From: Pseudomonadota bacterium | GTDB taxonomy: Bacteria; Desulfobacterota; Desulfovibrionia; Desulfovibrionales; Desulfovibrionaceae | NCBI GenBank assembly: GCA_018816865.1 | Contig: JAHIUW010000029.1 | Span: 1-64,000, forward strand | DNA: 64,000 nucleotides | Direction of reading: 5' to 3' | Shown here: positions 9,929 to 41,801 of the stretch, in pieces | How positions within the stretch are numbered: the stretch's first letter is position 1 | How the letters are laid out: each line of letters begins with the position of its first letter | Position numbers and translations under genes: made by a program | Notes under the pieces: model-generated | Seen by the model: only the letters and a program-made list of their open reading frames with translations | The model's database searches: none | What the model was told of the DNA's origin: nothing

Positions 9929-11452
9929 ATGGATGAACGCGAACGCATCATCAGGCAGCACCTGAAGGACGACCTGGGCCACTACGCCAGAAAGTGCTTG
10001 AAGATCCGCACCAAGTCGGGGCGGATTCTGCCGTTCGTTTTCAACCGGGCCCAGCGGCATCTTCACGCCCGCCTGGAGGAGCAGCGCAAGGTGCGCGGGC
10101 TCGTGCGTGCTTACGTACTCAAAGGGCGGCAACAGGGTTGTTCCACTTACGTTGGGAGTCGGTTCTTCCATCAGACCACACACCGTAAGGGTTGCAAGAC
10201 CATGATCCTGGCCCATGACACTGATGCCACCGACAACCTGTTTGCCATCGTGAACCGTTTTTATGACCACTGCCCGTCTGCGGTGCGCCCGAGCACGCGC
10301 TACAGTTCCAAGAAGGAGTTGGTTTTTGGGGCTCTGGACTCGGGGTACGCGCTGCAGACTGCCGGGTCCAAGGCCGGAGGTCGCTCAGACACCATTCAGT
10401 TGTTCCATGGGTCCGAGGTGGCGTTCTGGAAGCATGCCGCCGACATCGCATCCGGCGCCATGCAGACTATTCTCGACGCCGAGGGCACCGAGGTGATCCT
10501 GGAGAGCACGGCCAACGGCATGGGCAACTTCTTCCATGTGGGCTGGCAGGAGGCTGAAGCCGGGATCAGCGACTACGAGGCCATATTCATCCCCTGGTTC
10601 TGGCAACCTGAATACCGGCTGACAGTGCCTGAAGACTTCCACCTTGATCCGGAAGAGCAGGAACTGATGTACCTGTTCGACCTAACCATCGAGCAGATAG
10701 TCTGGCGGCGCAAAAAGATCATCGACATAAAAGACCCGTTCCTGTTCAAGCAGGAATACCCCATGACCGCCGAGGAGGCGTTCCAGGTCACTGGGCAGGT
10801 ATCGTTTATTACTGCCTCTATCGTGCTCAGAGCGCGCAAAGCTGATGTTCAGCCAAGCGGGCCTGTTGTCTGCGGTGTTGATCCGGCATGGTCCGAAGAA
10901 GGAGCTGACCGCACGGCGTTCATCTTTCGTCAGGGACGCAAGGCTTTCGGCCTGAAAACCTATAGTGGCAAAAACACCATGGAAGTAGCCGGCCTGTGTC
11001 GGCGTGTTTTGGAGGCCGATGCCCCGCGCGTGGACAGAATGTTCATCGATGTTGGAGGTATCGGCGCAGGGATCGTTGACAGGCTTACCGAAATGGGGTT
11101 CGGGGACCGTTTCACGGCGGTAAACTTCGGCAGTAGCGCCCTGCGTGAGGAACGCTACAAGAATAAGCGTGCAGAGATGTGGGGCGAGATGAAGGACTGG
11201 TTGAATGACGAGACGTTGCCCCACGACATCCCGGATGACAACGCCCTGCATGCCGATCTGGTTGGCCCGCAATTCACCTACGACAGTTCCAACAGGTTGG
11301 TATTGGAATCCAAGAAAGAAATGCGGGCCCGCGGGGTGCGCTCACCTGACGCCGGGGACGCCCTGGCCCTGACCTTTGCGGCTCCGGTGCGTGTTGGCAC
11401 CGGGCAAACTGCCCGACCAGTAAGAACCTTCATGCCCAAGGGGAGACGATGA
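9929..11452 (+). CDS. terL: Terminase large subunit
   Basis: A 507-residue DNA-packaging motor. The ATPase half has a deviant Walker A, KGRQQGCST (residues 65-73), and the Walker-B region around GTEVILESTANGMGNFF (about 189-205). The C-terminal RNase H-like nuclease shows the three acidic sites: GVDPAWSEEGADRTAF (about 310), FIDVGGIGAGIVD (about 372) and RSPDAGDALALTF near the end. Length and domain order fit the terminase 6-like family. Overlaps the portal gene start by four bases, the usual packaging-module order. Confidence 0.93.
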   Translation: MDERERIIRQHLKDDLGHYARKCLKIRTKSGRILPFVFNRAQRHLHARLEEQRKVRGLVRAYVLKGRQQGCSTYVGSRFFHQTTHRKGCKTMILAHDTDATDNLFAIVNRFYDHCPSAVRPSTRYSSKKELVFGALDSGYALQTAGSKAGGRSDTIQLFHGSEVAFWKHAADIASGAMQTILDAEGTEVILESTANGMGNFFHVGWQEAEAGISDYEAIFIPWFWQPEYRLTVPEDFHLDPEEQELMYLFDLTIEQIVWRRKKIIDIKDPFLFKQEYPMTAEEAFQVTGQVSFITASIVLRARKADVQPSGPVVCGVDPAWSEEGADRTAFIFRQGRKAFGLKTYSGKNTMEVAGLCRRVLEADAPRVDRMFIDVGGIGAGIVDRLTEMGFGDRFTAVNFGSSALREERYKNKRAEMWGEMKDWLNDETLPHDIPDDNALHADLVGPQFTYDSSNRLVLESKKEMRARGVRSPDAGDALALTFAAPVRVGTGQTARPVRTFMPKGRR

Positions 11453-13590
11453 CCACCGCAAAGCCCGTCACACCTCCGTTCAAGCGTCCGGATATTAAGC
11501 GCTTGCAGCACTGGGTCTATGAGGCCCACGCGGCGAGCGAAGACGAGCGTGCGGAGCGTTGGACCGATGCCAAGCTGGTAGACGGAGACCAGTGGAGCGA
11601 CACCGATTGGCGTACCGCCCAGGACGCAGGTGTCATGCCTATCACGGTCAATCACATATTTCCCATCGTCAATTTGCTGCGCGGGCATCAGATCATCAAC
11701 CGGGTGAACATCACGGCTAAGGGCGCCACCCAAAAGGATTCAGAGCTTTCAGAGATCATGACCGAGGCTCTAAAGTTCCTCATGCACCAGAACGAGGGCG
11801 ACTACATCCTGAGTGAGGCGTTTGCCGACCAGGTTGGGCCTGGCTGGGGGTGCTGCTTCCTGGGCACGAGTTGGGACGACCCTCGACGTGAACCCGTCCG
11901 CATTGAGTACAGGGACTGGAAGAACATCTTCTGGGATCCGTTCGGCTCGCCCTTCCTGGATACAAGGACGTGCCGATACGTATTCGAGCACAAGTGGATG
12001 GACCTGGACAGCCTGAAGGCTCTGTTCCCAGACAAGGCTGCTGAGATCGACAACCGATATGAGGCGATGAGCAGTGACAGCGCAGGGGCGTTGACGGACT
12101 TCTCCGAGGATGAGGCCACAGAGGTTGAGGATGAAAGGCGCATGAGCTCCACCTATTGGGTGCAGTCGGACCGCAAAAGGGTTCGCCCTGTGGAAATGTG
12201 GTACGTGGTGTACGAACCAGCCACATTTGCTGTGTTTGCTGACGGCAGGGTTATGGAACTCGACCTGAAGAAAGGTAATCCCCTGGAAATCATACAGGCC
12301 GTGAAGGCCGCCCAGCGCCTTCCGCGGGCCGTTGTCCGTAAGTTGCGTGTGTGCACCTTCCTGGGTGACACCGTGCTCCAGGACGTGCCGAGTCCATGCC
12401 CCCACGATCAATACCCATTCGTTCCCTTCGTGGGCTATGTGGATCGTCTCGGGTTCCCCTACGGTATGCCGCGCCAGGTTCGCGGACAGCAGGAAGAGGT
12501 CAACCGCCGCCGCTCCATGATGCTGGCCCACCTACAGAAGCGCAGAATCATCGTTGACAAGGAAGCGGTGGAGGACACCCAGGCCGCATACGAGGAGGCT
12601 AACAAACTCGATGGCATGATCGTGTTGAAAGATGGGGGGAAGCGGTTTGAGATGGATGAGCAGATGGGGCTGTCCGAGGGGCAGTTCAAAATCATGCAGG
12701 TCAGTTCCGCCGAGATCCAGCAGATTTCAGGCGCCAACGACGAACGCCTGGGCCAGGAAAGTCGCGCCATGAGCGGGGCCGCCATGGACAGCAGGGTGCG
12801 GCGCTCTGAAACTCTGACGGCCAGCCTCTTCGACAACTACCGCCGGGCATGTCATCGCCTGGGAGAACTTGCAGTGTCGGAGGTGCAGGGCACATGGACC
12901 TACGAGAAGGTCCTGCGTATCACCGACAGCCTGACCAAGGCAGATAGGTTTGTAACCTTGAACGAGAAAATCAAGGTCGGTGAAGGGGTATTTGAGGTTC
13001 GCAACAACGTCACCCAGGGCAAGTACGACGTCGTGGTCAGCGATGCCCCCAGGACGGACACCATTCGGGAGCAGAACGCGAACCTGCTCATGGAGACTAT
13101 CAAGAAGAGCCCGCCCGAGGTCATCCCGCAGCTCATGCTCCTGTGGTTCGAAATTTCCAACCTGCCCAACAAGGACGCCATCATGGCCAAGATCCGGCCA
13201 ATGTTTGGCGAGGCTCCGGACGCTCAGGATATGAGCCCCGAGGAAATCAAAGCCAAAGCCATGGCAGAGATCCAGCAGCAACAGGCCAAGGCCCAGGACA
13301 TAGACACTCACGAACATGCCATGCGCGCCCTGGATGTTGCAAAGCTCCAGGCCGAGATTGCAGAGATCATCTCCAGGGCCGAGAAGAACAAGTCCGACGC
13401 TGCGGCCAAGCCCGTCGAGGCCGGGGCAAAGGCCACGGACGCCGACACCAGGCGCGAGACGGCTAAGGTTGCGGCATTTAAAACAGGCGCGGAGGTTGGG
13501 TCCAAATGTCAGCCCCAGCCCACACCCCAATCCATGACGCCCCCGGCCGAAGTGAGCGAGGATCGGGACTGGAGGAGGATGTACTTGTGA
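11449..13590 (+). CDS. Portal protein, P22-like
   Basis: A 713-residue portal, the dodecameric ring through which DNA enters and leaves the head. The length and the segments RAERWTDAKLVDGDQWSD, GVMPITVNHIFPIVNLLRGH and EYRDWKNIFWDPFGSPFLD match the large P22-type portals of short-tailed phages. The C-terminal about 150 residues are helical and Gln/Ala/Lys-rich (QQQQAKAQDIDTHEHAM-like), fitting the barrel extension of P22 gp1. GGGGAGACG precedes the ATG. Confidence 0.9.
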   Translation: MTTAKPVTPPFKRPDIKRLQHWVYEAHAASEDERAERWTDAKLVDGDQWSDTDWRTAQDAGVMPITVNHIFPIVNLLRGHQIINRVNITAKGATQKDSELSEIMTEALKFLMHQNEGDYILSEAFADQVGPGWGCCFLGTSWDDPRREPVRIEYRDWKNIFWDPFGSPFLDTRTCRYVFEHKWMDLDSLKALFPDKAAEIDNRYEAMSSDSAGALTDFSEDEATEVEDERRMSSTYWVQSDRKRVRPVEMWYVVYEPATFAVFADGRVMELDLKKGNPLEIIQAVKAAQRLPRAVVRKLRVCTFLGDTVLQDVPSPCPHDQYPFVPFVGYVDRLGFPYGMPRQVRGQQEEVNRRRSMMLAHLQKRRIIVDKEAVEDTQAAYEEANKLDGMIVLKDGGKRFEMDEQMGLSEGQFKIMQVSSAEIQQISGANDERLGQESRAMSGAAMDSRVRRSETLTASLFDNYRRACHRLGELAVSEVQGTWTYEKVLRITDSLTKADRFVTLNEKIKVGEGVFEVRNNVTQGKYDVVVSDAPRTDTIREQNANLLMETIKKSPPEVIPQLMLLWFEISNLPNKDAIMAKIRPMFGEAPDAQDMSPEEIKAKAMAEIQQQQAKAQDIDTHEHAMRALDVAKLQAEIAEIISRAEKNKSDAAAKPVEAGAKATDADTRRETAKVAAFKTGAEVGSKCQPQPTPQSMTPPAEVSEDRDWRRMYL

Positions 13591-15364: not shown

Positions 15365-16471
15365 ATGGGTTACACGGAATTTGGAGTCAACCACCCCAGC
15401 GCCCGCAAGGTGTGGGGCAAGGAGTTGATGAGCGAAGTCGCCAAGGCCATGTTCTACAACAAGTTCATGGGCCAGGACGAGAACGCCATCGTCAAGGTCC
15501 AGACCGAGCTCAACAAGGCCGCCGGTGACAAGATCACCGTGGACCTGGTTCGCAAGCTCAATGGTTGGGGTGCTGAAGGCGACACCACCCTGGAAGGCAC
15601 CGACTACATGGAAGCGTTGGACTTCTTCAACGACTCTGTGCTCATCAACCAACTCCGCAAAGGTACGCAGTCCAAGGGCAAGATGTCCGAGCAGCGCGTG
15701 CCCCACAACGTCCGGATCAAGGGCCGCGATGCCCTCAAGATCTGGTGGGCCGAGGTCTACGACGAACTGATCATGATGTACTTGGCCGGTGCCCGCGGCG
15801 TGGACACCTCCTTCAAGGCCTCCTTGGCTTTCACTGGCTTTGCCGGGAACGCCCTGAGTACCCCGGACAACCTGATCTACTCGGGCGACGCCACCAGCAG
15901 CGACGACCTGGACTCCAGCGACAAGATGAGCCTGAGCATGGTTGAACGCGGTCTGGCCATGGCCGAGACCATGGACCCCATGATTCGTCCCATCCTGATC
16001 AACGGCGAGAAGAAGTTTGTGCTGCTCATGCACACCTTTGACGCTTTCAACCTGCGCACCAGCACCAGCGAAAACGACTGGCTGCAGATCCAGAAGGAAG
16101 CTGGTGACCGCGGCAAAAAGAACAAGGTCTACTCCAACGCGCTGGGCGAATACGCCGACGTGATCCTGCACAAGAGCCGCAACGTGGTTCGCTTCGACGA
16201 CTACGGTTCCACCGCCAACCTGCCCGCTTCCCGCAGCCTGTTCCTGGGCGCCCACGCTGGCATCATCGCCTGGGGCAAGGCCGGTGGCCCCAGCAAGATG
16301 GATTGGAACGAGAAGCTGTTCGACATGGGTAACTCCCTGGGCATCTCGGCCGGCTCCATCTTCGGCACCAAGCGCTCCACCTACGTGGACGAGAACGGTG
16401 AGAACGGCGTCGACTTCGGTTCCATCGCCATCGATTCCTACTGCAAGGACCCCAACGCCGCTGCGGCGTAG
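15365..16471 (+). CDS. Major capsid protein, N4-gp56-like family
   Basis: A 368-residue protein with the family's features: HPSARKVWGKELMSEVAKAM near the start, the long GDTTLEGTDYMEALDFFND segment and RRVPHNVRIKGRDALKIWW-type basic stretch, with codon use strongly biased towards C-ending codons, as expected for a very abundant protein. HK97-type fold by family. AAAGGAGTAATAGCC precedes the ATG. A GC-rich stem-loop follows the stop codon by 14 bases. Confidence 0.9.
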   Translation: MGYTEFGVNHPSARKVWGKELMSEVAKAMFYNKFMGQDENAIVKVQTELNKAAGDKITVDLVRKLNGWGAEGDTTLEGTDYMEALDFFNDSVLINQLRKGTQSKGKMSEQRVPHNVRIKGRDALKIWWAEVYDELIMMYLAGARGVDTSFKASLAFTGFAGNALSTPDNLIYSGDATSSDDLDSSDKMSLSMVERGLAMAETMDPMIRPILINGEKKFVLLMHTFDAFNLRTSTSENDWLQIQKEAGDRGKKNKVYSNALGEYADVILHKSRNVVRFDDYGSTANLPASRSLFLGAHAGIIAWGKAGGPSKMDWNEKLFDMGNSLGISAGSIFGTKRSTYVDENGENGVDFGSIAIDSYCKDPNAAAA

Positions 16472-28074: not shown

Positions 28075-28098
28075 GCCGCATAACTCCTTTTGGGAGTA

Positions 28099-28189: not shown

Positions 28190-28279
28190 GGATCTGTGAC
28201 AAGCAAATAGGAATGGATGTTGGTTTGAAACCGGGGGGGCCTAGTGGTCCCCTCGGTCGGGTGGGTTCTTTGGATTGGA

Positions 28280-28654
28280 CTATGAGTTCAATTCCTTGAC
28301 CACGTTCTGGATTGTTTTGTTGGCAGCTTGGCGGACTTTTTTTTCGTCTGCGAATTGCCCTTTCACATAGAGGAATAAAGGCACAAGTTTCATTTTGTCC
28401 GGGTAGACGAAAAAAAGAAGTCTGAGCCCGCCGCTTTTCCCAATACCGTAGGCTTTTAAAGGCAGTCTGACTTTCCGGATGGTGATTCTTTGGAAGCTCG
28501 GGAAGACATCACCCTGATCAGGGTTTTGGCAGAGACCGTCTACAAACGCATCCACATCCCCGTTGCAATCAGGGAACTTCTTAAGGGCGCGTTTTTTGGA
28601 TGCCGCGAAGGCTTCTGTTGGGACGAGAGTCAGTGGGCCACGGACTGAGATCAC
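28280..28654 (-). CDS. RelE/ParE-superfamily toxin-like protein
   Basis: A 124-residue protein with the usual RelE-like order: an N-terminal helix pair (AFAASKKRALKKFPDCNGDV), nP..GD segment (QNPDQGDVFPSFQ), strands ITIRKVRLPL, the hallmark GIGKSGGLRLLFFVYPD (about residues 72-88) and a last strand LVPLFLYVKGQFADEK. RelE-type toxins cut mRNA on the ribosome; ParE-type ones block gyrase; the sequence alone does not decide. The GTG start overlaps the stop of the upstream membrane-protein gene (GTGA), so synthesis is coupled. No recognisable antitoxin lies on either side, which is unusual. Followed by a strong terminator. Confidence 0.75.
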   Translation of the reverse strand: MISVRGPLTLVPTEAFAASKKRALKKFPDCNGDVDAFVDGLCQNPDQGDVFPSFQRITIRKVRLPLKAYGIGKSGGLRLLFFVYPDKMKLVPLFLYVKGQFADEKKVRQAANKTIQNVVKELNS

Positions 28655-29129: not shown

Positions 29130-29295
29130 CGCCAGATGTGCTGTTTTTGCCCACCTGAACGAGTCGTGCAAGTCCTGAACCAAGGTTGTGATTGATCTCA
29201 CAATCTCCCCCTTGTGCGCCCCTTCTACATGTTTCTGAAAAGCCTTGTCAACCAACTCCATTTCTCTTCGCTTGTCCCAAGCCAGGAGGTCACCC

Positions 29296-30846
29296 ATGTC
29301 GTCGGTCGCGGATCAATACAATCGAATCGGCAACACCGTTGAGCGGGCGTTCGGCGCACTCGGACGGGACCGGGCGAACAGGGCCGAGATGGGCCTGGCC
29401 GAGAAGCGTCTGGACGCGGATATGGCGGAGCGCGCCCTTGGGATGCCCGCCAAGCAGCTCGGAGCGGTGAAGGCCAAGCAGGAGTTGGAATACCTGAACG
29501 CCCCTCTCTCCGTCTGGGATGCCATCCCCAACGCGGACACGCACAGCCTGGAGCATGCGACATGGGAGAAGGAGGGTCGTGGCCCGAACCTCCTGGACCA
29601 GACGCAGCAGCTTATCGGCGCGAAGCTGGACACCAACCCCAAGAGCCAGACGTTCAAGCGGTTCGTGAAGCCCGACGGCACGGTCATGACCCGCGGCGAG
29701 TTCAGCCGCCACGCCCCGGACGTGTCCGCCATGTACTTTCTGTCCACCGACCCCGTGCGGGCCATGCGCATGCAGGATGAGAAGTTGCAGGAAGTGGAGC
29801 TGATGGGCGGGGCCGGTGCCGACCGTGCACGGGCACAGCGGGCGCAGATCCAGCCGTATTTGTCGGACCCGGCCACGCAGTTGCAGATGCTGCGGAGCTA
29901 CCGGGATAACATCTCTAGGTTCGACGGCAACCCGCAGGTGGAGAAGGCCTTGAAGCGCGCGGACCGCAAGATCGAATTGCTGCAGAAGCAGCTTGAGAAA
30001 CACGAGGACCGCAATTTCCAGCGTGGGATGAAGGCCGAGGACCGGGAATGGCAGACGCGCAAGATGCGTGAGCAGGAGGACCGGAAGGACAGGCGCGAGG
30101 GATTGAAGCAGGACAAGGAGCCCAACATGGGCGGCCTGTACATCTTCCCGGACGGCTCCAGGGCCACGACCCCCAGCGAGTTCAAGGCCTTGTGGGGCCT
30201 GCATGCCGGGACCGGCGAGACTGACCAATATGGCAATTCCATTGCCCAGCCATTCAACCAGCAGACCATGCAGTCCCTGGGTATCAAGTTCATCCCTCAT
30301 GGCATCGGCCAGGACACGGCTGCGGCGGCCGCCGGCCCCGGCCAGAGCGCGGGCGGGCCTTCGGCGCGGTTCCGGCTCGGAGAGCAGGGCCAGATGGCCA
30401 GAGTTCCGGAACAGAGAGCACAGGCCCAGGGCGGAATGCTTCAGCCTGGGAATATTGACCTGACCAACAGGCCGGTTGTCCAAAATCAGGACGGTTCGAT
30501 CAGCACCGTGCGGTCCATGGGCATCAATGTGGATGGCAAAGAGGTTCTGATTCCCACGGTGAGCGACGACGGGCGGGTGATGTCTGGACAGGAGGCTGTG
30601 CAGCAGTTCCGTCAGACCGGGCGGCACCTTGGGGTTTTCGACTCCCCGGAGGCGGCCAATACCTACGCCCGGCAGCTCCACGAACAGCAGGCCAAGGCCT
30701 ATAACCAGAAGCGCGGACCCCAGCCCAGCGCCGCCCCGATGCTCGACGATCAGGGAATGGTGAACGTGGGTGGCCAGCAATACCGGCCCGACCAGAACGG
30801 CGTCGTGGTGATCGACGGCAAGCGCTATCAGATCAAGCCCCGTTAG
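29296..30846 (+). CDS. Large helical virion/ejection protein
   Basis: A 516-residue protein. N-terminal helices ([20 protein letters not shown]), then a charged coiled-coil region (about 215-285, [20 protein letters not shown]) and a C-terminal module beginning [20 protein letters not shown] and ending with [20 protein letters not shown]. That C-terminal module is common in phage proteins located next to ejection genes. AGGAGGTC precedes the ATG at 29,296; the open frame upstream (from 29,245) lacks coding character. Ten bases before the giant gene, so the two are made together. Confidence 0.65.
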
Positions 30847-30855
30847 GAGGTCCCC

Positions 30856-33800
30856 TTGCCCCAGCAGATTGAATTGATCCCCCTGGATGAAGAGCAGCCC
30901 AGAGTGCCTGCGGCCGGACGGCAGATCATGCTTGTACCCCTGGACGACGACCAGCCCGAGGAGAAGCCCAGCTTCGTTGAGCGGTTCGTGATGCCCGGGG
31001 TGGAAGCGGCCCAGGCCGCTCAACCTGTGGCAGCTCCAAAGCAGGATGACGACCTGTGGGATATGGGCTCTCTCAAGGCCAGCTTTCAACCTTATGCCGA
31101 TGCAGCCCGTGGTCTGGCCGCTGGTTCCGCTTCTGTGGGTGAATCCGTAGGCTCCGGCATCCAATACCTCGGGAACAGGTTTGGAGCGGACGGCATGGCC
31201 GGGGCCGGAAAGGACTTGGCCGACTACTACAGCAAGCAGGGTGAAGCCTTCGCTCCGCCTGAGAGGATTCAGGGAAACGTCTTGGATAACCCGAGGCTGC
31301 TTGGTGATCCATCGTGGTGGGCCTACAACACCGCGCAGATGGTGCCGTCACTCGCGGCGGCGATGCTCCCCGGTGCTGGTGCCGGAAAGGCCGTCCAGAT
31401 AGGCGGGAAGGCGTTGCAACTGACACCCCAGGTCATTGCCAGGGCGGCGGCGTTCGCCCAGGCCGTCGGAGCTGGTACTGCCGGCGGCGCATTGGAGGGG
31501 GCCAGCACATACCGCGAAGTTCTCAACAATGGCGGCGGCGAGGAAGAGGCCGCAAGAGCCGCCGAGATTATGGGGCTTGGGTCAACGGTGCTCAATGCCG
31601 CATCCTTCGGGACCATGCTTGGCAAGGCTGGGACAGGGGCGGCGGCCAAGGTCGGGAAACATGTCTTGTCCGCAGCCACGGAAGGTGTTTCCGAGGCCGC
31701 TGAGGAGCCGTGGGAAGAGTATGCAAAGAGCTTCGCGCACTACCTGGAGACAGGGGACTTTGATCCGAAGACGTGGACCAAGATGGTGGACGCCGCAAAG
31801 ACACGCGGCCTGAACGTCTTGGGACCTGCTGCCTTGACCGGTGGTGCCGGGTCCATGATCGCTGGTGGCTCTGAATCCGATGGCCAGACTGAACAGATTG
31901 CCCCCCAATCCAATCCCCAGGGCCGACCCGTTGACCTGATCCCCCTCGAGGATACCGAGGCTGAACCCCTGACCCTTGGCGAGGAGCAACTCGTCCAGCG
32001 CGGTGACGCGGCTTTCCCGAAGCAGCAGGACCAGTTCCTTGAGCGGGCCGGGCAGGAGCGCGAGGTGCCCCTGGACCTGACGCGGATCGAGCAGCGTGGG
32101 TATCCGGACGCTGTGGAATTTGACCTGGATCAGGCCGGACGTGAGGCGGCCAGGGCCAGATATCTGGAGAGCGGCCAGGAACAGGCGGCCACGCCGCAGC
32201 CCGTGGGGCCGGAAGGGGAGCGCGCGGCGGACTTGCTGCGCGGCCTGAACCGGAACCTTCCTGTGCCGTTCGAGGCGCGTCCGGACGGGACGCCCATCGC
32301 CATGGGAGAGGCCCAGGGAACGCCGATTGAGCTGGTGCCGATGGACGAGGCCCAGCCTGTTGTCGCTGATGAAACACAGGCAAAGCCTGTTGTGATTGGC
32401 GAGAAGCCAGCTCAGCAAACACAAGAATTTCAATCCGTGCAGGTCGAGAACATGCCGGGGCCGGACTTCGAGCAGTTGGATGGCTTTCTCAGGCGGACGC
32501 CGGAGATGGTCCCTGGTCGGGTCGTGGACGCGCCTATGGCACGGGAACAGAAGCAGGAGAACCAGGAGCGCTTGCCCCAAGAAGCTCTCAGGCCAATGGC
32601 CCAGCGCATCGTCAATGCCGAAAACAGTTTCATCACCTCGGTGATGGAGCAATTCGGCAAGTCCCGTGAACAGGCTGAAAACGTCCTGGGTGAGTTCAAA
32701 AAAGCCAAGGTAGTGAAGATTGATCCGGTGGGTGGCCAATACCAGTTGAAGGACGGCCGCCTGTGGGAGCAGGAAGTCATTGACAGAGCTGCGGGTGCCA
32801 AGGTCGAGCAAACTGCCGGGGCGTATGGCATCGAATCGCACGATGCCTTTGTTGAGCGCATGCGGTCCGGCGAAGTCACTCCGAATGAAATCCGTGGGAC
32901 CCTGGAGAGAGCCATTGAGCAAGAGGCCAATATCAAGGCCGAACTATCCAAGCTGACCAAGGACAAGCTGCTCAAGATGATGGGGGGTATCACGGCCTCA
33001 AGGTACAAGAGCGAGAGGAAAGAGATTGTTGTCAGGGCCGCCTATGACGATATGCTCATGGACTTTGCTATGGGTGGCGGTTTGTCCTTCATGGTGACTG
33101 GCAAAGCCAGTGACTCCAGGGCCAAGGCCCTGCGCGAGAAAGTCCTTGCCTACACTAAGGACGATATCAAGGCCTACGCCGAGCGCGTCCAAAAAGCCCG
33201 GGACGACTACGCCGAAAGGGTCAGGGCGTTCAAGAAGGCCCAGGACAACCCGGAGACCTTGCAAGAGTTCAAGGACTTTGTGGGTGCCCAGGGTGAGGGC
33301 AAGCTGACCGTAGAACAGCGTGCCAAATACGATGCCTTGCGTGCTGAGGAAGCGCGCCGGGTTCAGCAAGCCGAAGTGGAGCGCAAGGGCACCGTATCCC
33401 AAGTCCGCGGCATGGACGACGTGGATATGGAACTTGTTGAAACCAAGCATACCCGCGACGGTCATGACCTGTTTGTGGTGCGCCTGTCCGACCGGGTGGA
33501 CAAGGACAAGTACCGAGAACTTTTGACCAAGGCCAAGCGCCTTGGCGGTTATTATTCCCGCTACGCCAAAGGCGGTGCAATCCCCGGGTTCCAGTTCAAG
33601 ACCAGGGCTCAGGCCGATGACTTCATGGCCCTCAAGGAGCAATCAGTTTCCGTGGCCGAGCAGCAGGCCGAGCGCAAGGAAGAGAAGAGAACCAAGGCCA
33701 GATCAAAGTTGCGCGAAGCGGCCGACGCGATGGACGCCAAAGCTGATGAGGCATTGGGAGCCGACCGCAAGACCAACACCGTGAAGAGGGCGCGCGAGGC

Positions 33801-36800
33801 TGGATACGCCGAGGAGCAGGCCCAGAAGCAGAAGGCTATGGCCGCAACCATGCGCCGCATCGCCGACGCCGTTGAAAGCGGAGAGGCCCCGGCCCTGGCT
33901 GGGCTTACCCAGAAAGTGCAGATGGAGAGGCTTGAGTCACTGTTGCGCCGCGGACAATTTGAACGAGTGCGGTCTGAGAATTTGCCCCACGAGGAAGGTA
34001 GGGAGATCGTCGCGGCCGACATTGAACACGTCAAGATGCCGGTGCCGTCTATCTGGCGGGAAAACATAGAAAGCCTCGCCCGGGACTTGAGCGAAATGCC
34101 TGGGGGCAAGGCGCTAGCCAAACAGGTGCGGGCCAGGATCAGCCGCGGTTCTGGAGACAGTTACGTTTTCAACGGCACGGGGGATGAGGAGCTTGCAAGA
34201 AAGATCAGGGACAAGCTCAAGGCCAACGGGGTTACCCACCAGTGGTGGACGATCATAGAGACCATTCCGGACGTAGACCGCCTCGCCCGCATGGGCATCA
34301 CCAAGGAGTTCCAGCTCCGCGACGCACTGCGGCAGTATTTCAGCCTGCGCAAAGCCAAGGCCAAAGCCGACCCGCTCAAGGCCATGGAGCGGGATCTTAT
34401 CGGCAAGAAGATCCCCGGGTTCTTCCCGACTCCGGCCAGGATCGTGGGCAGGATGATCGAGGAGGCGGGCATCGAGCCCGGCATGAAGGTCCTTGAGCCG
34501 AGCGCCGGAAAGGGCAGTATCGCCGACAAGATCAGGGAGGCAGAGCCCGGGGCTGATCTGGACACGGTGGAACAGAACCACAGTCTGCGCGGAATCCTTG
34601 AGGCCAAGGGGCACAGGCTTGTCGGGTCCGATTTCCTTGAGCACCAGGAGAACTACGACCGCATCGTCATGAATCCGCCCTTCGAGAATCATCAGGATAT
34701 CGAACATGTCCGGCATGCCTACGACCTGCTGAAACCGGGCGGGCGCATTGTCTCCATCATGAGTTCGGGGCCGTTTTTCCGTAGTCAGAGGGCAGACGTT
34801 GAGTTCCGCTCGTGGCTTGAGAATATCGGCGCGACCTATGAACAGTTGCCGGAAGGCACGTTTAAGGACTCCGACGTTCCCACGGGCACCTCCACCTACA
34901 TGGTGACCATCGACAAGTCTGACGGAGACGTGGTAGAATCCAACCAGAAGAGGACAGACTATGAAGATGACACCCGCCGAAAAGAGACAACTTCGCCAAG
35001 CCGTGGTCAGGTTGAGCCGCAAGGTCAACAAGGCCGCCAGGACGCTGCGCAGTCGCAAGCCGAAAGACTCCGCCGAGAAATAGTCGAGGCGGCCCAGGTC
35101 GAGCATTTTTTCGAGGACGGCAAGACCGTTTTCGATTCCTTCGCATTCTTCAACAAGCTCCAGGAAGTCGTTGAATCCGGACAGATGACCCTTGATGAGG
35201 CCATGGTTTTCGTGCGCGATACTGAAAAGCGTGTCGAGAACCTGATGCAGGATGTTGACGAGGTGCCGTTTGGTGGTTCCGAGGGAGATGTCTGGATTAA
35301 GGACAAGATCATCGAGGCCATGGACGCCGCTGCCGTTGAGGGCATCCAGCGTGATACCGCCATTGACGAGTACGCGCGTGTCCTTGGTGCCCTGCGCCAA
35401 GGACGCGGATTATCCTATAAATCCATCTCCGAGAATTATGGCCGTGACGTGGCCCGGGACCTGCGCGACAGGTTTGGCCCCGGGATCTTCAAGCGTGACG
35501 GCTGGGGTGCGGACGAGATTGCCGGGGAGCTTGGATTTATCGACGACTCCGGGCGCGCCGATGGGCATGCCCTGATCGAATACCTACAGGACAAGGCCAA
35601 GACCAAGGGCCAGATCGACGAGGATCATCCGGAACCTTCGGTAAGATTCTCGCGCCGTAGGACTTCGTTCTATTCAGCCCTTGGTCGTGCAGTCGAGTCC
35701 ATGGACTTCAAGGCCATGCCCGCCACGGCCCTCGCCAGTCGGATTAAGAAGACCTCTGGCATCAAACAGGAGGAACTGGACGACCTGGGCCTGCTGGAAT
35801 GGCTGAGCACCGTGGATGGCAAGGTCACCAAGGAGCAGGTACTGGCTTACATCGAGGCCGGTGGCCCGCAGTTGGAAGAGGTGGTGAAGAGGGAAGGGGG
35901 CAACACTTGGCGCGGGGGAGCCGCTCGTGCAAACCGAGTACGGGAAGCGTTGATGGAGTTTTTTCCGGGGGATACCCGTTTACCGAACAGAGAATCCGCT
36001 CTGGAAAGAGTGGAGCTCGAGGATCGCCCAAAGATAAACCGGCTATACGATGAGCTGGACGCGGCGAGTGATCTCATGATGATCCCTCCGGACGCCATGG
36101 ATGACACCAAGTTCTCCCAATACCAGCTCCCCGGCGGCGAGAACTACCGCGAGGTATTGCTGAAGCTGCCCCTCACCGGCCAAGCCGTTTACGACAATCT
36201 CGCCATGAAGATGTTCGGGAAGTCATTCAAGGCCCTCGACTTCGCACAGTCGCGCCAAGTGACCAACGCGAGGAGAAACAGCAAACCATACCATGGCCAG
36301 CATTGGGTGGAAGAGAACGTCCTGGCCCATGTTCGTCTCAACGACCGCGTGGGTGCTGATGGCGGGAAGGTCCTGTTCATCGAGGAGATTCAGAGCGATT
36401 GGCACCAGGAAGGCAGGAATAAGGGGTATAACGGCGCTGGTGCCGAGATTCTTAAAGAGTATGAAGCCCTGGCGATGAAGAATATCCACGCGGGGCTGAC
36501 TGAACAGGAAAAGTCAAGACTCCTTGAATTGAGGCCGCTGGTTGCTGGGAAAGGGGCTGGTGGTGTCCCCAATGCCCCGTTCAAGAAGTCCTGGTATCTG
36601 CTAGCCTTCAAGCGTGTCCTGCGCATGGCCGCCGAGCAGGGCTACGATTCTGTGGCCTGGACTCCTGGAGAGGTGCAGGCCGAGCGGTACGATCTGAGCA
36701 AACAGATCAACATGGCTTCGGCCATTGCCAACGGGGATGGGACATACAACCTCGTCGTTGAGGACAAAAGCGGTAACGAGGTGTCCCCGTACTCCCGTTC

Positions 36801-39800
36801 AGGGAAAACAGTCACCCCGCAGGAAATGGAAGACACCATCGGGAAGGATTTGACCGCAAAGATTATCGCGGGGGCGGACGCCGCCAAGGGCAAACCCTGG
36901 CCGAAAACCTCCCCCATTAATCCGGCTTTCTTCACCCTGCGCGGCCTCGACCTCAAGGTTGGCGGCGATGGCATGAAGGGCTTCTACGACAATATCCTGC
37001 CCAAGGAGGTCGGCAAGTACGTTAAGAAACTCGATAAGGATACAAAGGTCGGGACGACTGAAGTTCCGGTAGTTGCCGTGGGGGATCAAGCACCCCAAGA
37101 GGCACGAACTCGGGGTCTGGATTCTGATTACAAGGACGTCTGGTCGGTGCCCATCACAGACAAGATGCGCTTGGCTGTCCTGCAGGGGCAACCCCTGTAT
37201 TCCCGCCGCGGCCAGCGCAACACCAAGGGCATCAGCGTCAATGATGTCTCCCAGGTTGTGGACAGGCAACAGGCCATGTCCGACAACGCCCCGGAGATCA
37301 AAATCATCCAAGCCATGAACAACCTGCCTGTGCATGTGCGGGAGGAATATGAACGCCGTGGCGGTGGTTTCCCAGAGTCCGCCTATGATGAGCAGACAGG
37401 AATTGTCTACTTCATAGCCAACAACATTGAATCCATGGACCGGGCCTATGCGCTGTGGTTGCATGAAGCTGGGCTGCACAACGGGGTGCGGGGACTATTC
37501 CCGAGTGACACACATTACCGAAACATGATGGATCATGTGTACCGGAGCGCTCCGAGGAATAGCCTGCGCGAGATAGAAAAGCTGTATGGCTTCAACCCCG
37601 GGAAGGTTGAAGACCGCTGGCAGGCTGCCGAGGAACACCTGGCGCGCATCGCCGAGAAGGTGCGCATGCGCGAGGTGCTGGCCCCAAGGGAGCGGAACAT
37701 CTGGCAGAGGTTCGTAATTGCGCTGCAGCGCTTCATGCGCCGCATCTTCAAGGGTGGTACGCTGGCGGACTCCGACATTGTAGATATCGTTCTGGACGCC
37801 GTGCGCTGGACGGTGACCGGGAAGCCGACTGGCGGGGCAAGAGTGGCCTATCAGAGAGCAACTGGGGAGGCCCAGGCTAGGCCCACGAGCACTAGCAGGT
37901 TCTCGCGCAGCAGCCGCAAACGCGGCCCCGGATCTTCCGCCGTACCCGAGACCGAATGGACCCAGGATAGCGCCGGGCAACAGGTCGCCGCGGACATGCG
38001 GGCATGGAAGAAGCAGGTGGATGAGGCGCTGGCCGGCACATTGCCTTCGCGGCAGATTCTACAGGTTGGAACGACTCCGGATGTGTTGCAAAAACTTGGA
38101 GCCAAAGGCCTGCCCATGGCCATGCGCCAGAGTGACTTGCGCAAGATTGTGCAGACCAAGCACGACATCCCGGCAGAGATCATAAAAGACCTCCCCTTGC
38201 ACATGTGGCAGCCGTTGGCCGTGTTTGATTCATCCACGACATCCAACAGCTTCGCGGTGCTGACCGAGTTGGAGCACAACGGTGAGGGCCTTGTTGCGAT
38301 GGTGCACCTCGACGTGGACGACATGGGCAACTTGATGATGAACAAAGTTGCCAGCGTACATGATCGCAGCGGAAAGGACGCCGGGTCGCCTGGTTGGCAG
38401 TGGGTGGTGAATCAGATCAGGGAGGGGAGGCTTAGATACTATGACAAAAAAAGAAGCTCTCGCTGGCTGAAGGACAGGTCCGGGCTGCAATTGCCCGGGG
38501 TTCTCCAGCCGGAGAGCTATCGTGGGAAGAGAATACTCACGGAAAAGGATATCGTCAAGCCCCAGGGTGCAACGCTGTTTTCGCGGTCGAGTGAGGCCCC
38601 GGAGATGAAGGGCGGTGTCCCGACCAGGGAACAGGACCCGAGCTTCTGGGCCACCGTGCGCGAGATGAAGCGCCAGGGCGCGCTCAAGCCCAAGGACATC
38701 CGCATGCTGGAGCGCATCTTCCGGCAGCCTTACTGGATTGCAAAGGAGCACGAGAAGTTTGCTCCGTTCATCAAGATCGAACAGGACCGCGAGGCGGCCC
38801 GCACCGATGCCCAGTTGAGGTCATGGGAAGAGGTGAATGATCATCTTAAGGCCCTGGACAAGGACGGCAAGAAAACCCTGAGCCAGGTGATCTGGCACAT
38901 CGAGGGCAAGAAGCTCAAAGAGGTGGAGGCCGGAAAGTTCCTCAAGGACGGCGTGGACGAGAATGGGCACCAGAAGTACAGGACCAACCCCAAGCACTAT
39001 GAGCAGCTTTTCCAGACCCTGACCAAGCACGGGATCCCCGAGGACGTGGCCACCGCCGTTGCCGCCGTGCGCCGGACCCTGGACCGGGATATGCTGGCCG
39101 CATACAACAGGCTGCGCCGGATGCGCGAAAGCCATGAGGATGCCGGATACATCGAGGAATACCGGACCATGATGGGCCAGGTGCACAACTACTTCCCGCA
39201 TGTGCGCCGGGGAACCCACTACGTCCGCATCTTCGACAAGAAGACCGGAGAGACCTTGTATCGGGAGCACTTCAGCGCCCTGCCCACGATGAAGAAGTTT
39301 GTGGGCGCGACGGTCATGCGCAAGGCCCTGGCCGAGGTGCGCAAGAACAACCCCGATGCGGACCTGTCCTGGGACTGGGGCAAGAACGAAGGCCTGCCCG
39401 AGGACGTTTACGGCTACACTATCCCTGTGGATGCCATGGAGCAGATCATCAACGCGGCCATCGACCGCCAGGGCGGGGACAAGGAGAGCCGCGCCAAGGT
39501 CAAGAGCCTGATGCATGAGGCTGTGTCCGACGTGCTCAAGACCAGGGGTTGGAGCCGACACACGATCAAGCGCCAGGGCATCCCCGGGCACGAAATGAAC
39601 GACATCGCCGGAGTGCTGTTCGACTACAAGTCGGGGCTCTATGGCTGGCTGACCAAGATGGATGCGGCCAAGGCCTTCACCGGAGAACTCTACAAGATCG
39701 ACGCCAAGAAACAACCGCGGCTGTATGGCTATTCCGCCCGCTATGTGCAGGACATGCTCCAGAATGCGGACCGGGTGGACCAGATCGTGTCCATGGTCAA

Positions 39801-41298
39801 GGCCGGGGCGTTCGTCAAGTTCCTGGGCGGCAACCTGAAAACCGCGACCCTGAACCTGACCCAAAACCTTGTGGCCGGAGTGCCGAGACTGTACGCGGAT
39901 ACCAGCGCCAAGACCGCTGCGGGGTACTTTAAAGCTGCCGTGGATGACCTGGCCGCACAGGCCAAGGTGAAGACGCTCCAATCCGACGAGACCAAGCTCC
40001 TGGAAGACCTCTACTACTCCGGCGTGACCGCCGACCAGTACATGAGAGAGCTGCAGGGTGAGATGCGCGGCGTTGGCGGCGTGGCCGGTGCCGGGCTGCG
40101 CAAACTGAATCATGGCCTGGGCCTGCCTATGAGCATGGCCGAACGCTACAACCGCTGCTCTTTGGCCCTGGCCGCATACCGGGCCGCCCGGGACGGCAAG
40201 GTGACGGCGGCGGATACGCTGCAAAAGGCCGGGAAGAAGAAGGGCGAGGCCTGGGGCTACGATGAGGCCAAGAGCTTTGCCGAGGGCATCGTCTACGATT
40301 CCCACTTCATGTACGGCAAAGCCAACCGGCCCGAGTTGTTCCGTGGCGGGACAGGCAACAAGATCATGAGCGCGGCCTACACCTTCCGGACCTTCTCCCA
40401 TGGGTTGCTTTCGTTGTGGCGGCACCTGCTGACCCAGAAGGGTTGGGCCGGGCGCAGGGCGTTTGCCATGTCCCTGGCTGCGAACACCGCCCTTGGGGGG
40501 CTGACCTCCTTACCCCTGTACGCGCTTGTCGTGGGCCTGATTCGCCAGCTCTTCGGCGAGGACCCTGCGGAAGAAGCCATGAAGCTGACGGACAACCAGA
40601 CCATGCGCGACATCATTATGTATGGAATTACAGCGCCTGCGGGTGTGACCATCTCCGGATCCCTCGGCATGGAGTTGCCCATGTTCGACCGGGTTGCCGT
40701 GGACAAGCCCATTGATGAGCAGATCAAGGGGAAGGCCCTGGAACTGATCGGTGTGCCGTGGGCCCTGTTCGAGGATGTGGTTGATTTCGCCGGACACACT
40801 GCCGAGGGCAAGTTTGCCCGGGCCACCGAGGACCTGGCCCCGGCCTTCCTTGCGAACATCATGAAGGCGTATCGGCTGCACAGCGAGGGAGCCTATTCCG
40901 CCAGCGGCAGGCCGATCAATATCCCCGGAGAGAGCGGGCCGATGAAGCTGACCACGGGCGAGGCCATTGCCCAGGGCATCGGGTTTTATCCCCTGAACCG
41001 GGCCAAGAGCTACGACCTGTACAAGACGGTCGAGGAATTGAAGGTCTACCGGCTCAACAAGCAGGACGAGTTGGTGCGCGAGTACCTTGAGGCCGTGCGC
41101 GAGAAGGACGGTGAGGCGCGGGCCAAGGTATTGAGCGAGTGGCGAGAATGGAACAGGAAAATGAAGGATGACGGCAGACCCGAGTTCATGATCAAGCCGT
41201 TGCCGGAGTTGTCCAGGCGGCGCGAGAAGGCCAACCAACCGTCGAGGCAGATGAGGCCCCGGGCGGAGAAGCTCAAGAGCGCTTACGGGCTCAACTAG
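30856..41298 (+). CDS. Giant multi-domain polyvalent protein (3,480 residues), probably ejected into the host
   Basis: Starts at TTG after TAGGAGGTCCCC. Visible parts: a repeated N-terminal motif IELIPLDEEQP (residues 5, 24, 359, 491); a Gly/Ala-rich membrane-compatible stretch (about 165-300); a polyvalent-associated segment (TKHTRDGHDLFVVRLSDRVD, about 863-925); an N6-adenine methylase domain (about 1,185-1,345; LEPSAGKG about 1,213-1,220, NPPF 1,273-1,276); a segment with FIEEIQSDWHQEGRNKGY (about 1,835-1,855); a zincin-like peptidase with HEAGLH (2,203-2,208); a barnase/EndoU/colicin-like nuclease pattern (about 2,390-2,560, LRKIVQTKHDIPAEIIKDLP); and a long helical C-terminal region with a membrane-like segment (about 3,202-3,234). 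The motif (L/R)(F/Y)SR recurs at 1,597, 2,114, 2,348 and 2,574, between domains. Known polyvalent proteins of phages carry effectors delivered with DNA. It is close in size to N4 virion RNA polymerase but shows none of its polymerase motifs. Confidence 0.85.
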   Translation: MPQQIELIPLDEEQPRVPAAGRQIMLVPLDDDQPEEKPSFVERFVMPGVEAAQAAQPVAAPKQDDDLWDMGSLKASFQPYADAARGLAAGSASVGESVGSGIQYLGNRFGADGMAGAGKDLADYYSKQGEAFAPPERIQGNVLDNPRLLGDPSWWAYNTAQMVPSLAAAMLPGAGAGKAVQIGGKALQLTPQVIARAAAFAQAVGAGTAGGALEGASTYREVLNNGGGEEEAARAAEIMGLGSTVLNAASFGTMLGKAGTGAAAKVGKHVLSAATEGVSEAAEEPWEEYAKSFAHYLETGDFDPKTWTKMVDAAKTRGLNVLGPAALTGGAGSMIAGGSESDGQTEQIAPQSNPQGRPVDLIPLEDTEAEPLTLGEEQLVQRGDAAFPKQQDQFLERAGQEREVPLDLTRIEQRGYPDAVEFDLDQAGREAARARYLESGQEQAATPQPVGPEGERAADLLRGLNRNLPVPFEARPDGTPIAMGEAQGTPIELVPMDEAQPVVADETQAKPVVIGEKPAQQTQEFQSVQVENMPGPDFEQLDGFLRRTPEMVPGRVVDAPMAREQKQENQERLPQEALRPMAQRIVNAENSFITSVMEQFGKSREQAENVLGEFKKAKVVKIDPVGGQYQLKDGRLWEQEVIDRAAGAKVEQTAGAYGIESHDAFVERMRSGEVTPNEIRGTLERAIEQEANIKAELSKLTKDKLLKMMGGITASRYKSERKEIVVRAAYDDMLMDFAMGGGLSFMVTGKASDSRAKALREKVLAYTKDDIKAYAERVQKARDDYAERVRAFKKAQDNPETLQEFKDFVGAQGEGKLTVEQRAKYDALRAEEARRVQQAEVERKGTVSQVRGMDDVDMELVETKHTRDGHDLFVVRLSDRVDKDKYRELLTKAKRLGGYYSRYAKGGAIPGFQFKTRAQADDFMALKEQSVSVAEQQAERKEEKRTKARSKLREAADAMDAKADEALGADRKTNTVKRAREAGYAEEQAQKQKAMAATMRRIADAVESGEAPALAGLTQKVQMERLESLLRRGQFERVRSENLPHEEGREIVAADIEHVKMPVPSIWRENIESLARDLSEMPGGKALAKQVRARISRGSGDSYVFNGTGDEELARKIRDKLKANGVTHQWWTIIETIPDVDRLARMGITKEFQLRDALRQYFSLRKAKAKADPLKAMERDLIGKKIPGFFPTPARIVGRMIEEAGIEPGMKVLEPSAGKGSIADKIREAEPGADLDTVEQNHSLRGILEAKGHRLVGSDFLEHQENYDRIVMNPPFENHQDIEHVRHAYDLLKPGGRIVSIMSSGPFFRSQRADVEFRSWLENIGATYEQLPEGTFKDSDVPTGTSTYMVTIDKSDGDVVESNQKRTDYEDDTRRKETTSPSRGQVEPQGQQGRQDAAQSQAERLRREIVEAAQVEHFFEDGKTVFDSFAFFNKLQEVVESGQMTLDEAMVFVRDTEKRVENLMQDVDEVPFGGSEGDVWIKDKIIEAMDAAAVEGIQRDTAIDEYARVLGALRQGRGLSYKSISENYGRDVARDLRDRFGPGIFKRDGWGADEIAGELGFIDDSGRADGHALIEYLQDKAKTKGQIDEDHPEPSVRFSRRRTSFYSALGRAVESMDFKAMPATALASRIKKTSGIKQEELDDLGLLEWLSTVDGKVTKEQVLAYIEAGGPQLEEVVKREGGNTWRGGAARANRVREALMEFFPGDTRLPNRESALERVELEDRPKINRLYDELDAASDLMMIPPDAMDDTKFSQYQLPGGENYREVLLKLPLTGQAVYDNLAMKMFGKSFKALDFAQSRQVTNARRNSKPYHGQHWVEENVLAHVRLNDRVGADGGKVLFIEEIQSDWHQEGRNKGYNGAGAEILKEYEALAMKNIHAGLTEQEKSRLLELRPLVAGKGAGGVPNAPFKKSWYLLAFKRVLRMAAEQGYDSVAWTPGEVQAERYDLSKQINMASAIANGDGTYNLVVEDKSGNEVSPYSRSGKTVTPQEMEDTIGKDLTAKIIAGADAAKGKPWPKTSPINPAFFTLRGLDLKVGGDGMKGFYDNILPKEVGKYVKKLDKDTKVGTTEVPVVAVGDQAPQEARTRGLDSDYKDVWSVPITDKMRLAVLQGQPLYSRRGQRNTKGISVNDVSQVVDRQQAMSDNAPEIKIIQAMNNLPVHVREEYERRGGGFPESAYDEQTGIVYFIANNIESMDRAYALWLHEAGLHNGVRGLFPSDTHYRNMMDHVYRSAPRNSLREIEKLYGFNPGKVEDRWQAAEEHLARIAEKVRMREVLAPRERNIWQRFVIALQRFMRRIFKGGTLADSDIVDIVLDAVRWTVTGKPTGGARVAYQRATGEAQARPTSTSRFSRSSRKRGPGSSAVPETEWTQDSAGQQVAADMRAWKKQVDEALAGTLPSRQILQVGTTPDVLQKLGAKGLPMAMRQSDLRKIVQTKHDIPAEIIKDLPLHMWQPLAVFDSSTTSNSFAVLTELEHNGEGLVAMVHLDVDDMGNLMMNKVASVHDRSGKDAGSPGWQWVVNQIREGRLRYYDKKRSSRWLKDRSGLQLPGVLQPESYRGKRILTEKDIVKPQGATLFSRSSEAPEMKGGVPTREQDPSFWATVREMKRQGALKPKDIRMLERIFRQPYWIAKEHEKFAPFIKIEQDREAARTDAQLRSWEEVNDHLKALDKDGKKTLSQVIWHIEGKKLKEVEAGKFLKDGVDENGHQKYRTNPKHYEQLFQTLTKHGIPEDVATAVAAVRRTLDRDMLAAYNRLRRMRESHEDAGYIEEYRTMMGQVHNYFPHVRRGTHYVRIFDKKTGETLYREHFSALPTMKKFVGATVMRKALAEVRKNNPDADLSWDWGKNEGLPEDVYGYTIPVDAMEQIINAAIDRQGGDKESRAKVKSLMHEAVSDVLKTRGWSRHTIKRQGIPGHEMNDIAGVLFDYKSGLYGWLTKMDAAKAFTGELYKIDAKKQPRLYGYSARYVQDMLQNADRVDQIVSMVKAGAFVKFLGGNLKTATLNLTQNLVAGVPRLYADTSAKTAAGYFKAAVDDLAAQAKVKTLQSDETKLLEDLYYSGVTADQYMRELQGEMRGVGGVAGAGLRKLNHGLGLPMSMAERYNRCSLALAAYRAARDGKVTAADTLQKAGKKKGEAWGYDEAKSFAEGIVYDSHFMYGKANRPELFRGGTGNKIMSAAYTFRTFSHGLLSLWRHLLTQKGWAGRRAFAMSLAANTALGGLTSLPLYALVVGLIRQLFGEDPAEEAMKLTDNQTMRDIIMYGITAPAGVTISGSLGMELPMFDRVAVDKPIDEQIKGKALELIGVPWALFEDVVDFAGHTAEGKFARATEDLAPAFLANIMKAYRLHSEGAYSASGRPINIPGESGPMKLTTGEAIAQGIGFYPLNRAKSYDLYKTVEELKVYRLNKQDELVREYLEAVREKDGEARAKVLSEWREWNRKMKDDGRPEFMIKPLPELSRRREKANQPSRQMRPRAEKLKSAYGLN

Positions 41299-41725: not shown

Positions 41726-41801
41726 TGGCTCCCCAGCACGGACTTGAACCGCGAACCTAGTGATTAACAGTCACCCGCTCTGCCAATTGAGCTACTGGGG
41801 A
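41726..41801 (-). tRNA. tRNA-Asn (anticodon GUU)
   Basis: A complete cloverleaf on the minus strand: acceptor TCCCCAG/CTGGGGA, D-arm GCTC...AGC with AATTGGCAG, anticodon stem GGTGA/TCACT around CTGTTAA (anticodon GTT), T-arm CGCGG/CCGTG around TTCAAGT, discriminator G and an encoded CCA. Length 76 bases including CCA. The prophage lies on its 3' side, the usual arrangement for integration into a tRNA gene. Confidence 0.97.

Follow-up and report, generated by a model that had tools for sequence, protein, structure and literature searches.

What is a protein of 3,480 residues, encoded at the end of a row of phage genes in a Desulfovibrionaceae genome, and how may the unrelated enzymes that it appears to contain be separated from one another? 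The gene, here called the giant, lies in contig JAHIUW010000029.1 of assembly GCA_018816865.1, of which a stretch of 64,000 nucleotides (positions 1 to 64,000, the window) was analysed. By analogy with known phage proteins, we consider it probable that the giant is a polyvalent protein, a single chain that a temperate podovirus makes while its virions assemble, packs into the head and ejects together with its DNA as a multi-enzyme effector. This view is based on its modules, their conserved residues, the mosaic order of these modules among relatives, the position of the gene in a prophage operon and the record of a partial homologue in virions. The giant fits well into a known class, and its combination of domains was found nowhere else in this search; what is new is a domain family with a GNAT-like predicted fold and a short motif at the borders between modules. 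The relatives are denoted by the numbers of their loci (L036 and so on).

The reading frame

The preliminary description of the window, made from its letters, had reported a single open frame with a TTG start and a strong ribosome site, and both are present (Table 1), as are all four motifs that it quoted: LEPSAGKG at residue 1213, NPPF at 1273, FIEEIQSDWHQEGR at 1841 and HEAGLH at 2203. Because antisense frames in the window reach 1,313 residues, the length of the frame is little proof in itself; it is taken to be real because homology was found along it. A viral contig encodes the same protein (match over residues 1-3480, best segment 100% identical), segments of the giant match 17 open reading frames (ORFs) from 16 other loci, and family searches place MuF_C at residues 2429-2535 (Pfam, E 2.1e-20), the small methyltransferase domain MTS at 1210-1302 (Pfam, E 2.3e-5) and a PHROG methyltransferase family at 652-1387 (E 7.9e-233). 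The N-terminal 338 residues had no match among phage records. In genomes, the stretch 640-1390 with the methylase was matched in 6 of 149 and the stretch 1600-2600 in 20 of 149, the own genome included in both cases; outside the own genome, the listed matches to the latter all fall within the zincin or MuF_C part, none of them beginning before residue 2101. A scan of genome contigs with the whole giant gave seven pattern matches and no confirmed relative, and a search for PF18796 (LPD1) found nothing in the own genome, but is uninformative as its 14 controls were blank too. The Gly/Ala-rich character that had been described holds for residues 1-400 (28-31%), whereas the membrane compatibility claimed with it is weak, since a 19-residue hydropathy scan gave one hydrophobic stretch only, at 3211-3229.

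A mosaic of five modules

A polyvalent protein joins at least two domains of disparate activity in one phage polypeptide, and the giant does so, with methylase and MuF_C modules recognised by Pfam, the tail-700 module by NCBIfam, and the zincin-like and EEIQSD modules by alignment; the class suggested in the preliminary description is thereby supported. The borders of all modules except the EEIQSD domain were taken from local profiles and are those of Table 1.

The methylase named there is likewise supported, by the MTS and PHROG matches and by the motifs of a gamma-class adenine methylase of the EcoKI/TaqI type, namely the TP motif (FFPTPA from residue 1189), the S-adenosylmethionine motif LEPSAGKG and NPPF. 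A sequence search of the PDB gave a single weak match (E 0.0036). The segment described as PBECR/EndoU-like, at about 2,390-2,560, encloses the Pfam MuF_C match (PF18819, 73.2 bits against a cut-off of 27.6). Among the 24 aligned rows of this module, N2496 and S2500 never vary, H2436 is missing from one row only and T2562 is present in 21. The conserved H2436 and S2500 agree with the His plus Ser/Thr arrangement of PBECR RNases (PMC5512222), and we infer an RNase role for this module.

The zincin-like module contains HEAGLH, which is of the HExxxH and not the HExxH type, a form described for one set of polyvalent metallopeptidases (PMC5512222). Only H2203, E2204, H2208, G2210, E2260 and A2263 are invariant among its 12 aligned rows (window included). 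H2203, E2204, H2208 and E2260 (H93, E94, H98 and E150 of the alignment), invariant in 12/12, give an HEXXXH helix and a Glu in the next conserved helix; the row of L127 has a canonical HExxH, one residue fewer. In the predicted model (predicted local distance difference test, pLDDT, 80.8), a first helix is followed by three short strands and then by the HExxxH helix, and E2260 sits on a helix further along the chain. Its fold matches are weak (several metallopeptidases at Z of at most 5.8, Foldseek E at best 0.25), Pfam gave nothing convincing in 7/7 members (best E 0.0053), and a PDB sequence search gave unconvincing matches only (talin, E 0.0018 over 49 positions). The module is likely a zincin, mainly on its conserved residues. 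Of the earlier domain calls, those of methylase and MuF_C are supported; that of the zincin is weaker, with conserved ligand-type residues, no convincing family model and low-scoring folds.

At the C-terminus, NCBIfam NF032893 (tail-700) covers residues 2779-3440 (E 1.1e-54, 186.1 bits against a cut-off of 100), and a PHROG family labelled DarB-like covers 2976-3473 (E 2.7e-26). Sequence searches of the PDB with this domain gave unconvincing matches only.

The relatives are mosaics of the same blocks: L040 shares residues 57-337 at 53% identity, H66_0060 of phage H66 shares 659-1091 at 38% and the methylase at 52%, and L041 shares MuF_C alone at 62%. The order methylase, zincin, MuF_C, tail-700 recurs in four other proteins, L039, L132, L141 and L147, the last two being similar to each other; between their methylase and zincin profiles lie 12 (L141) and 8 (L147) residues, against 730 with the GNAT-like domain in the window. 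L127 has methylase, GNAT-like, zincin and LPD38, and L086 has methylase, zincin, GNAT-like and tail-700. All five modules occur in the window's ORF alone among 138 ORFs of at least 600 residues with at least one module, a set in which overlapping loci supply the same protein more than once and locus ends truncate many ORFs; this fits the earlier suggestion that the exact domain mix is probably new.

Several side observations concern these blocks. In the L043 giant, residues 1813-2468 show a local duplication, with one zincin on either side of a MuF_C, and L042 carries two MuF_C copies. The acidic repeats in the N-terminal part of the giant take the form IELIPLDEEQP and are possibly docking or packaging tags; the N-terminus of H66_0060 has a different repeat, with a PWEEF motif.

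A domain family with a GNAT-like predicted fold

Between methylase and zincin lies a domain of 520 residues that the preliminary description had overlooked as a domain of its own, quoting only its core, FIEEIQSDWHQEGR; we call it the FIEEIQSD or EEIQSD domain. In a scan of viral contigs at least 581 places, among 600 pattern matches, encode relatives of it, of which 80 were followed up together with loci found earlier. It occurs in ORFs of about 600 to 4,389 residues, twice per ORF in L036, L099 and L103, and in 3 of 395 genomes of the phylum, the own genome included and one of them marginal (E 9.4e-4). From 113 domain matches in 84 ORFs, 57 passed the filters for length, coverage and redundancy, and after removal of two L036 rows the alignment consisted of the window and 55 relatives. 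Its 56 rows have 24 invariant columns, among them N1763, Y1764, E1766, H1816, N1821, H1825, R1827, E1844, Q1846, S1847 and D1848, which sit on three successive predicted strands or adjoining turns.

Two side observations show the range of contexts. In Dolichospermum phage Dfl-JY45 (L036, 6847-14067) a "hypothetical" protein of 2,400 residues carries four ART-PolyVal stretches and two EEIQSD domains that are separated by a zincin-like domain, and in an uncultured phage (L037, 9266-11809) the domain is found in an 847-residue protein encoded two genes past an annotated "head to tail connecting protein".

Of the 56 rows, each of two Pfam families and one NCBIfam family reaches a single one at E <= 0.01, none convincingly, and a PDB sequence search with a 58-row alignment gave no match. 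PHROG 7348, labelled endolysin, matches 53/56 rows; as the match is confined to one part of its 2,564-position model, the label was probably carried over from another domain and is probably misleading here. In a viral library, 27 matches at E <= 0.001 are uncharacterised, polyvalent or named after other domains, and below them N-acetyltransferases appear from E 0.016, mixed with uncharacterised proteins.

The predicted structure is of good quality (pLDDT 84.7, predicted template-modelling score 0.79). At the head of the structural comparison stands an isocitrate lyase 2, matched in its C-terminal part (Z 10.1, root-mean-square deviation 3.8 over 144 residues), followed by Rv1916 (Z 9.7) and by TacT3, AtaT, KacT, NatD and Elp3 at Z 8.8-9.3, the match to TacT3 (Z 9.3) covering 131 of its 163 residues. 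About 43 of the 50 rows listed we take, by their titles, to be GNAT acetyltransferases, GNAT toxins, Elp3 or complexes with one of these. Foldseek also puts GNATs first (best E 0.012). The predicted core fold is like that of the GNATs, from which the domain differs by the lack of similarity to GNAT family models, by long inserts and by the invariant ExQSD. The acetyl-CoA signature of GNATs is R/QxxGxG/A; in the EEIQSD rows R1854 is kept in 50/56 and G1857 in 55/56, with G or A at the last position in only 13/56. Because this signature is half kept, we call the domain GNAT-like and not GNAT. It is likely an unnamed family with a predicted fold like that of GNAT acetyltransferases.

It is conceivable, if in our judgement rather unlikely, that the domain is a different enzyme on a similar alpha/beta layout and no acetyltransferase. 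This would agree with the partial signature, the failure of any GNAT family model to match one of the rows at E <= 0.01, a Foldseek E no better than 0.012, and the size of the model, which at more than 400 residues lies where the aligner warns that single-domain matches may come out weak or be missed. On the other side, the best rows are GNATs with most of the target domain covered and their Z-scores are above the 7-8 typical of unmatched models, and several N-acetyltransferases stand below the 27 matches of the viral library. Two RimI-like GNAT families have been described in polyvalent proteins (PMC5512222), and phage GNATs modify RNA polymerase (Rac) and DNA adenine (Mom) (PMC7824862); phage Mu Mom was considered as a relative of the EEIQSD domain and had no sequence support (probability 0.1%). 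Among the papers listed by a literature search that included GNATs in polyvalent proteins, no account of the EEIQSD domain was found.

A short motif at the module borders

Four of the six [FY]SR tripeptides of the giant lie at module edges (Table 1), and those at residues 900 and 1979 lie away from them. The codons differ among the four junction sites, though two share TTCTCGCGC, which leans towards selection on the protein sequence. A wider test drew on 110 non-redundant ORFs other than that of the window, 108 of which entered, and occurrences were counted in 45-residue zones at module edges, which make up 5.0% of residues. In these giants of other phages 16 of 72 [FY]SR fall in border zones (P 4.3e-7), as do 38 of 156 [FY]S[RK] (P 3.0e-16), where related sequences are not independent and the wider form was adopted after viewing relatives. 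The controls [FY]xR (50/985) and RS[FY] (1/51) show nothing, and [WLIVM]SR is barely enriched (16/201, P 0.046). At zincin borders alone the count for [FY]SR is 4/26 (P 0.0083). Some border cases of [FY]S[RK] are the FYS with which the EEIQSD domain itself starts; when FYS and FFS are left out, 30/138 remain at borders (P 8.7e-12), and 14/79 at zincin and MuF_C borders alone (P 2.9e-6). When all tripeptides were ranked, Y being counted as F and K as R, the motif came 7th of 3,529 for the borders as a whole and 5th of 2,293 for those of zincin and MuF_C; PL[FY] and L[FY]Q rank beside it, some of these coming from GQPLF, the last strand of the GNAT-like domain. As a separate observation, 38 of 73 occurrences of L[FY]Q lie in border zones, for example EVLFQSD in L076.

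As far as sequence can tell, the border position of [FY]S[RK] suggests hinges or cut sites; the motif might be where the chain is cut, a joint that helps it to thread through the tail, or a seam left by recombination. The separation of enzymes in one polyvalent chain was raised in 2017, in the excerpted text without a proposed site (PMC5512222), and the virion RNA polymerase of phage N4 is a beads-on-a-string chain suited to threading (PMC12633501). Among the papers listed by our literature search, which included the processing of polyvalent proteins, no account of such a linker was found. A bolder proposal, which we regard as speculative and on balance improbable in its entirety, is that polyvalent proteins are ejected polyproteins in which the [FY]S[RK] linker, with L[FY]Q as a variant, marks module borders across unrelated phages and is cut by the HExxxH zincin within the chain. 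After ejection the chain would then split into free enzymes, and one of these, from a large and so far unnamed family of acyltransferases, would reprogram the host or modify phage DNA.

Relatives in virions and alternative explanations

A guide to the location of the giant is H66_0060, which by BLAST shares residues 659-1091, 1142-1354 and 2775-3455 and whose record reads "verified by mass spectrometry as part ...". In H66 the gene is preceded by those for portal, capsid and tail and followed by holin and endolysin. The portal, capsid and tail-type proteins of the window match H66 proteins with the same mass-spectrometry note (E 1e-42, 4e-12 and 5e-7). According to PMC5217972, the same very large protein occurs in phiC725A, H66 and LKA5, is structural in H66, has a methylase SAM site and a part that matches an internal virion protein; for phiC725A_54, this protein corresponds to the C-terminal part of N4 gp50. 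A literature search for H66 with mass spectrometry found no paper. H66_0060 and phiC725A_54, of F116-like podoviruses (Hollowayvirus), thus agree with the giant in gene position, in residues 659-1091, in methylase and C-terminal domain, and in being virion proteins by annotation. Since H66_0060 shares segments and gene position with the giant and is annotated as a virion protein, the giant is, by this analogy, likely packaged, and the earlier idea that it is a virion component appears probable.

Other known systems are similar in part. The polyvalent proteins of Iyer et al. 2017 (PMC5512222) also carry several unrelated enzymes on a single phage polypeptide, adenine methylase, HEXXXH metallopeptidase and PBECR among them, and are predicted to be ejected with DNA; the giant differs by the large EEIQSD domain between methylase and zincin and by a methylase without the usual SWI2/SNF2 helicase. 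DarB of phage P1 is a virion-borne adenine methylase (PMC5512222), with which the giant shares the DarB-like C-terminal match. N4 virion RNA polymerase gp50 is also a multidomain protein of about 3,500 residues that is ejected with DNA (PMC12633501), but the Pfam scan of the giant contains no RNA polymerase family and gp50 is not among the PDB matches of its C-terminal domain. Erwinia phage Pavtok encodes a relative of 5,007 residues, 25% identical over the C-terminal domain, directly before its lysis genes and annotated as methylase, helicase and transglycosylase.

The virion record and the tail-700 domain, which matches 70 phage records, would also suit a giant that is chiefly a structural ejection or pilot protein, channel- or tape-like, with enzyme domains that have decayed or just aid DNA entry. 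This is improbable in our view: in diverse phages the zincin-like, MuF_C and GNAT-like modules keep their catalytic-type residues with few or no exceptions, and the methylase too is matched at the DNA level (some part of residues 1-2667 is found in 132 phage records, and the 20 listed all match at the methylase). That the giant is unpackaged, being made late and acting in the cell on the host or rival phages, is very improbable given the mass-spectrometry annotation and matching gene position of H66_0060, even though a late operon position by itself is no proof of packaging and the virion data are for H66 and not for the window's phage.

Several results weigh against an ejected, self-cleaving multi-enzyme effector. 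H66_0060 has no BLAST match to the GNAT-like, zincin-like and MuF_C domains and is only 23.8% identical in its C-terminal part, which is separated from its methylase by a stretch with two motifs of its own, HELQH and HEMVH. A helicase partner of the giant's methylase was not detected, a point that the preliminary description missed: helicase families are absent from a Pfam scan of the whole giant at E <= 1, with a library that detects helicases in L127 and L111, so that it lacks the dyad of DarB, in which a superfamily 2 helicase lies C-terminal to the methylase. Foldseek searches of the PDB with the EEIQSD and zincin-like models gave no match at E <= 0.001, and template-modelling scores by query length are low (at most 0.12 among the matches listed for the EEIQSD model). 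In contrast to H66, no gene for lysis was identified downstream of the giant. As for the border motif, SR in any context is mildly enriched at borders (60/734, P 1.7e-4), and [FY]SR at MuF_C borders alone is not significant (3/30, P 0.079). In the window alone it is the top tripeptide with F and Y merged (6 against 0.76 expected, P 1.4e-4), which is not significant after correction for thousands of tripeptides. In 59 giants, compared with shuffled sequences, FSR was over-represented (36 against 17.3), but so was the control [FY]RS (58 against 31.2), and YSR was not (17 against 14.7). Finally, N4 virion RNA polymerase, of the well-studied giants the nearest one, is packaged unprocessed (PMC5512222), which speaks against obligatory processing before packaging.

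Prophage setting

The giant follows terminase, P22-type portal, capsid and tail-type genes and then a gene of 533 residues. From this operon order, the adjoining tRNA-Asn and host genes, and the matching viral contig, it closes the virion genes of a temperate podovirus that has integrated next to tRNA-Asn. Beyond the tRNA gene lie host genes, the first of which is a class II (D/K/N) tRNA synthetase. The only attachment-type direct repeat of the tRNA-Asn region (at least 14 bases) found in the window is at 44751, within host genes; the left end of the prophage may be outside the window, as this starts at base 1 of its contig. Residues 392-524 of the 533-residue gene are 50% identical to the front of the L043 giant's open frame. 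Because its C-terminal part fronts that frame, the two genes appear linked in function, and the upstream gene is probably, judging from sequence, a partner virion or ejection protein; its C-terminal 130 residues look like a mobile domain. Elsewhere in the window, at 27496-28654 on the minus strand, two ORFs oppose the late operon and are perhaps moron genes; one is lipoprotein-like, and one we take to look RelE-like.

Table 1. Positions in the window of the giant gene, its modules and junction motifs, and neighbouring features.
Feature	Position	Strand	Remarks
P22-type portal	11449..13590	+	homologous to H66 portal
Capsid protein (Pfam Phage_capsid_3)	15365..16471	+	homologous to H66_0045
Upstream 533-residue gene	29245..30846	+	residues 392-524 match front of giant's open frame in L043
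Ribosome site AGGAGG	30845..30850	+	five bases before TTG, read from sequence
Giant polyvalent protein gene (probable class)	30856..41298	+	3,480 aa, TTG start
Region with four acidic repeats [IV]x[LMIV][IV]P[LM][DE][DE]	30868..32367	+	residues 5, 24, 359, 491
N-terminal Gly/Ala-rich region	31024..31866	+	residues 57-337, 53% identical to related giant L040
Region common to H66_0060	32830..34128	+	residues 659-1091, 38% identity
Adenine N6-methyltransferase-like domain	34279..35004	+	residues 1142-1383; TP 1192-1193, LEPSAGKG 1213, NPPF 1273
EEIQSD domain	35644..37209	+	residues about 1597-2118 (local profile to 2124), GNAT-like predicted fold
Junction motif FSR	35647..35655	+	residue 1598
Zincin-like domain	37192..37857	+	residues 2113-2334; HExxxH 2203-2208, third ligand candidate E2260
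Junction motif YSR	37198..37206	+	residue 2115
Junction motif FSR	37900..37908	+	residue 2349
MuF_C / PBECR RNase-like domain	37957..38580	+	residues 2368-2575; H2436, N2496, S2500 conserved
Junction motif FSR	38578..38586	+	residue 2575
Tail-700 (PLxRFG-named) domain	38683..41289	+	residues 2610-3478
tRNA-Asn	41726-41801	-	about 430 bases past giant

Proposed function and significance

For the giant we infer ejection, the individual catalytic activities and self-cleavage, which could be combined as follows. The N-terminal and C-terminal regions would serve packaging and passage, and the chain would enter the host with the phage DNA. There the methylase would modify the incoming DNA at adenine, the GNAT-like domain may acylate a host component, be it a protein, tRNA or another amine, and the MuF_C/PBECR domain would cut RNA, while the HExxxH zincin-like domain could separate these units at the short linkers with [FY]S[RK]. 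As a module, the EEIQSD domain is common in phages and strongly conserved, and its likely fold and invariant residues open the way to a first assay. The border motif, in turn, offers a concrete and testable answer to the question of how the unrelated enzymes of one ejected chain may be separated.

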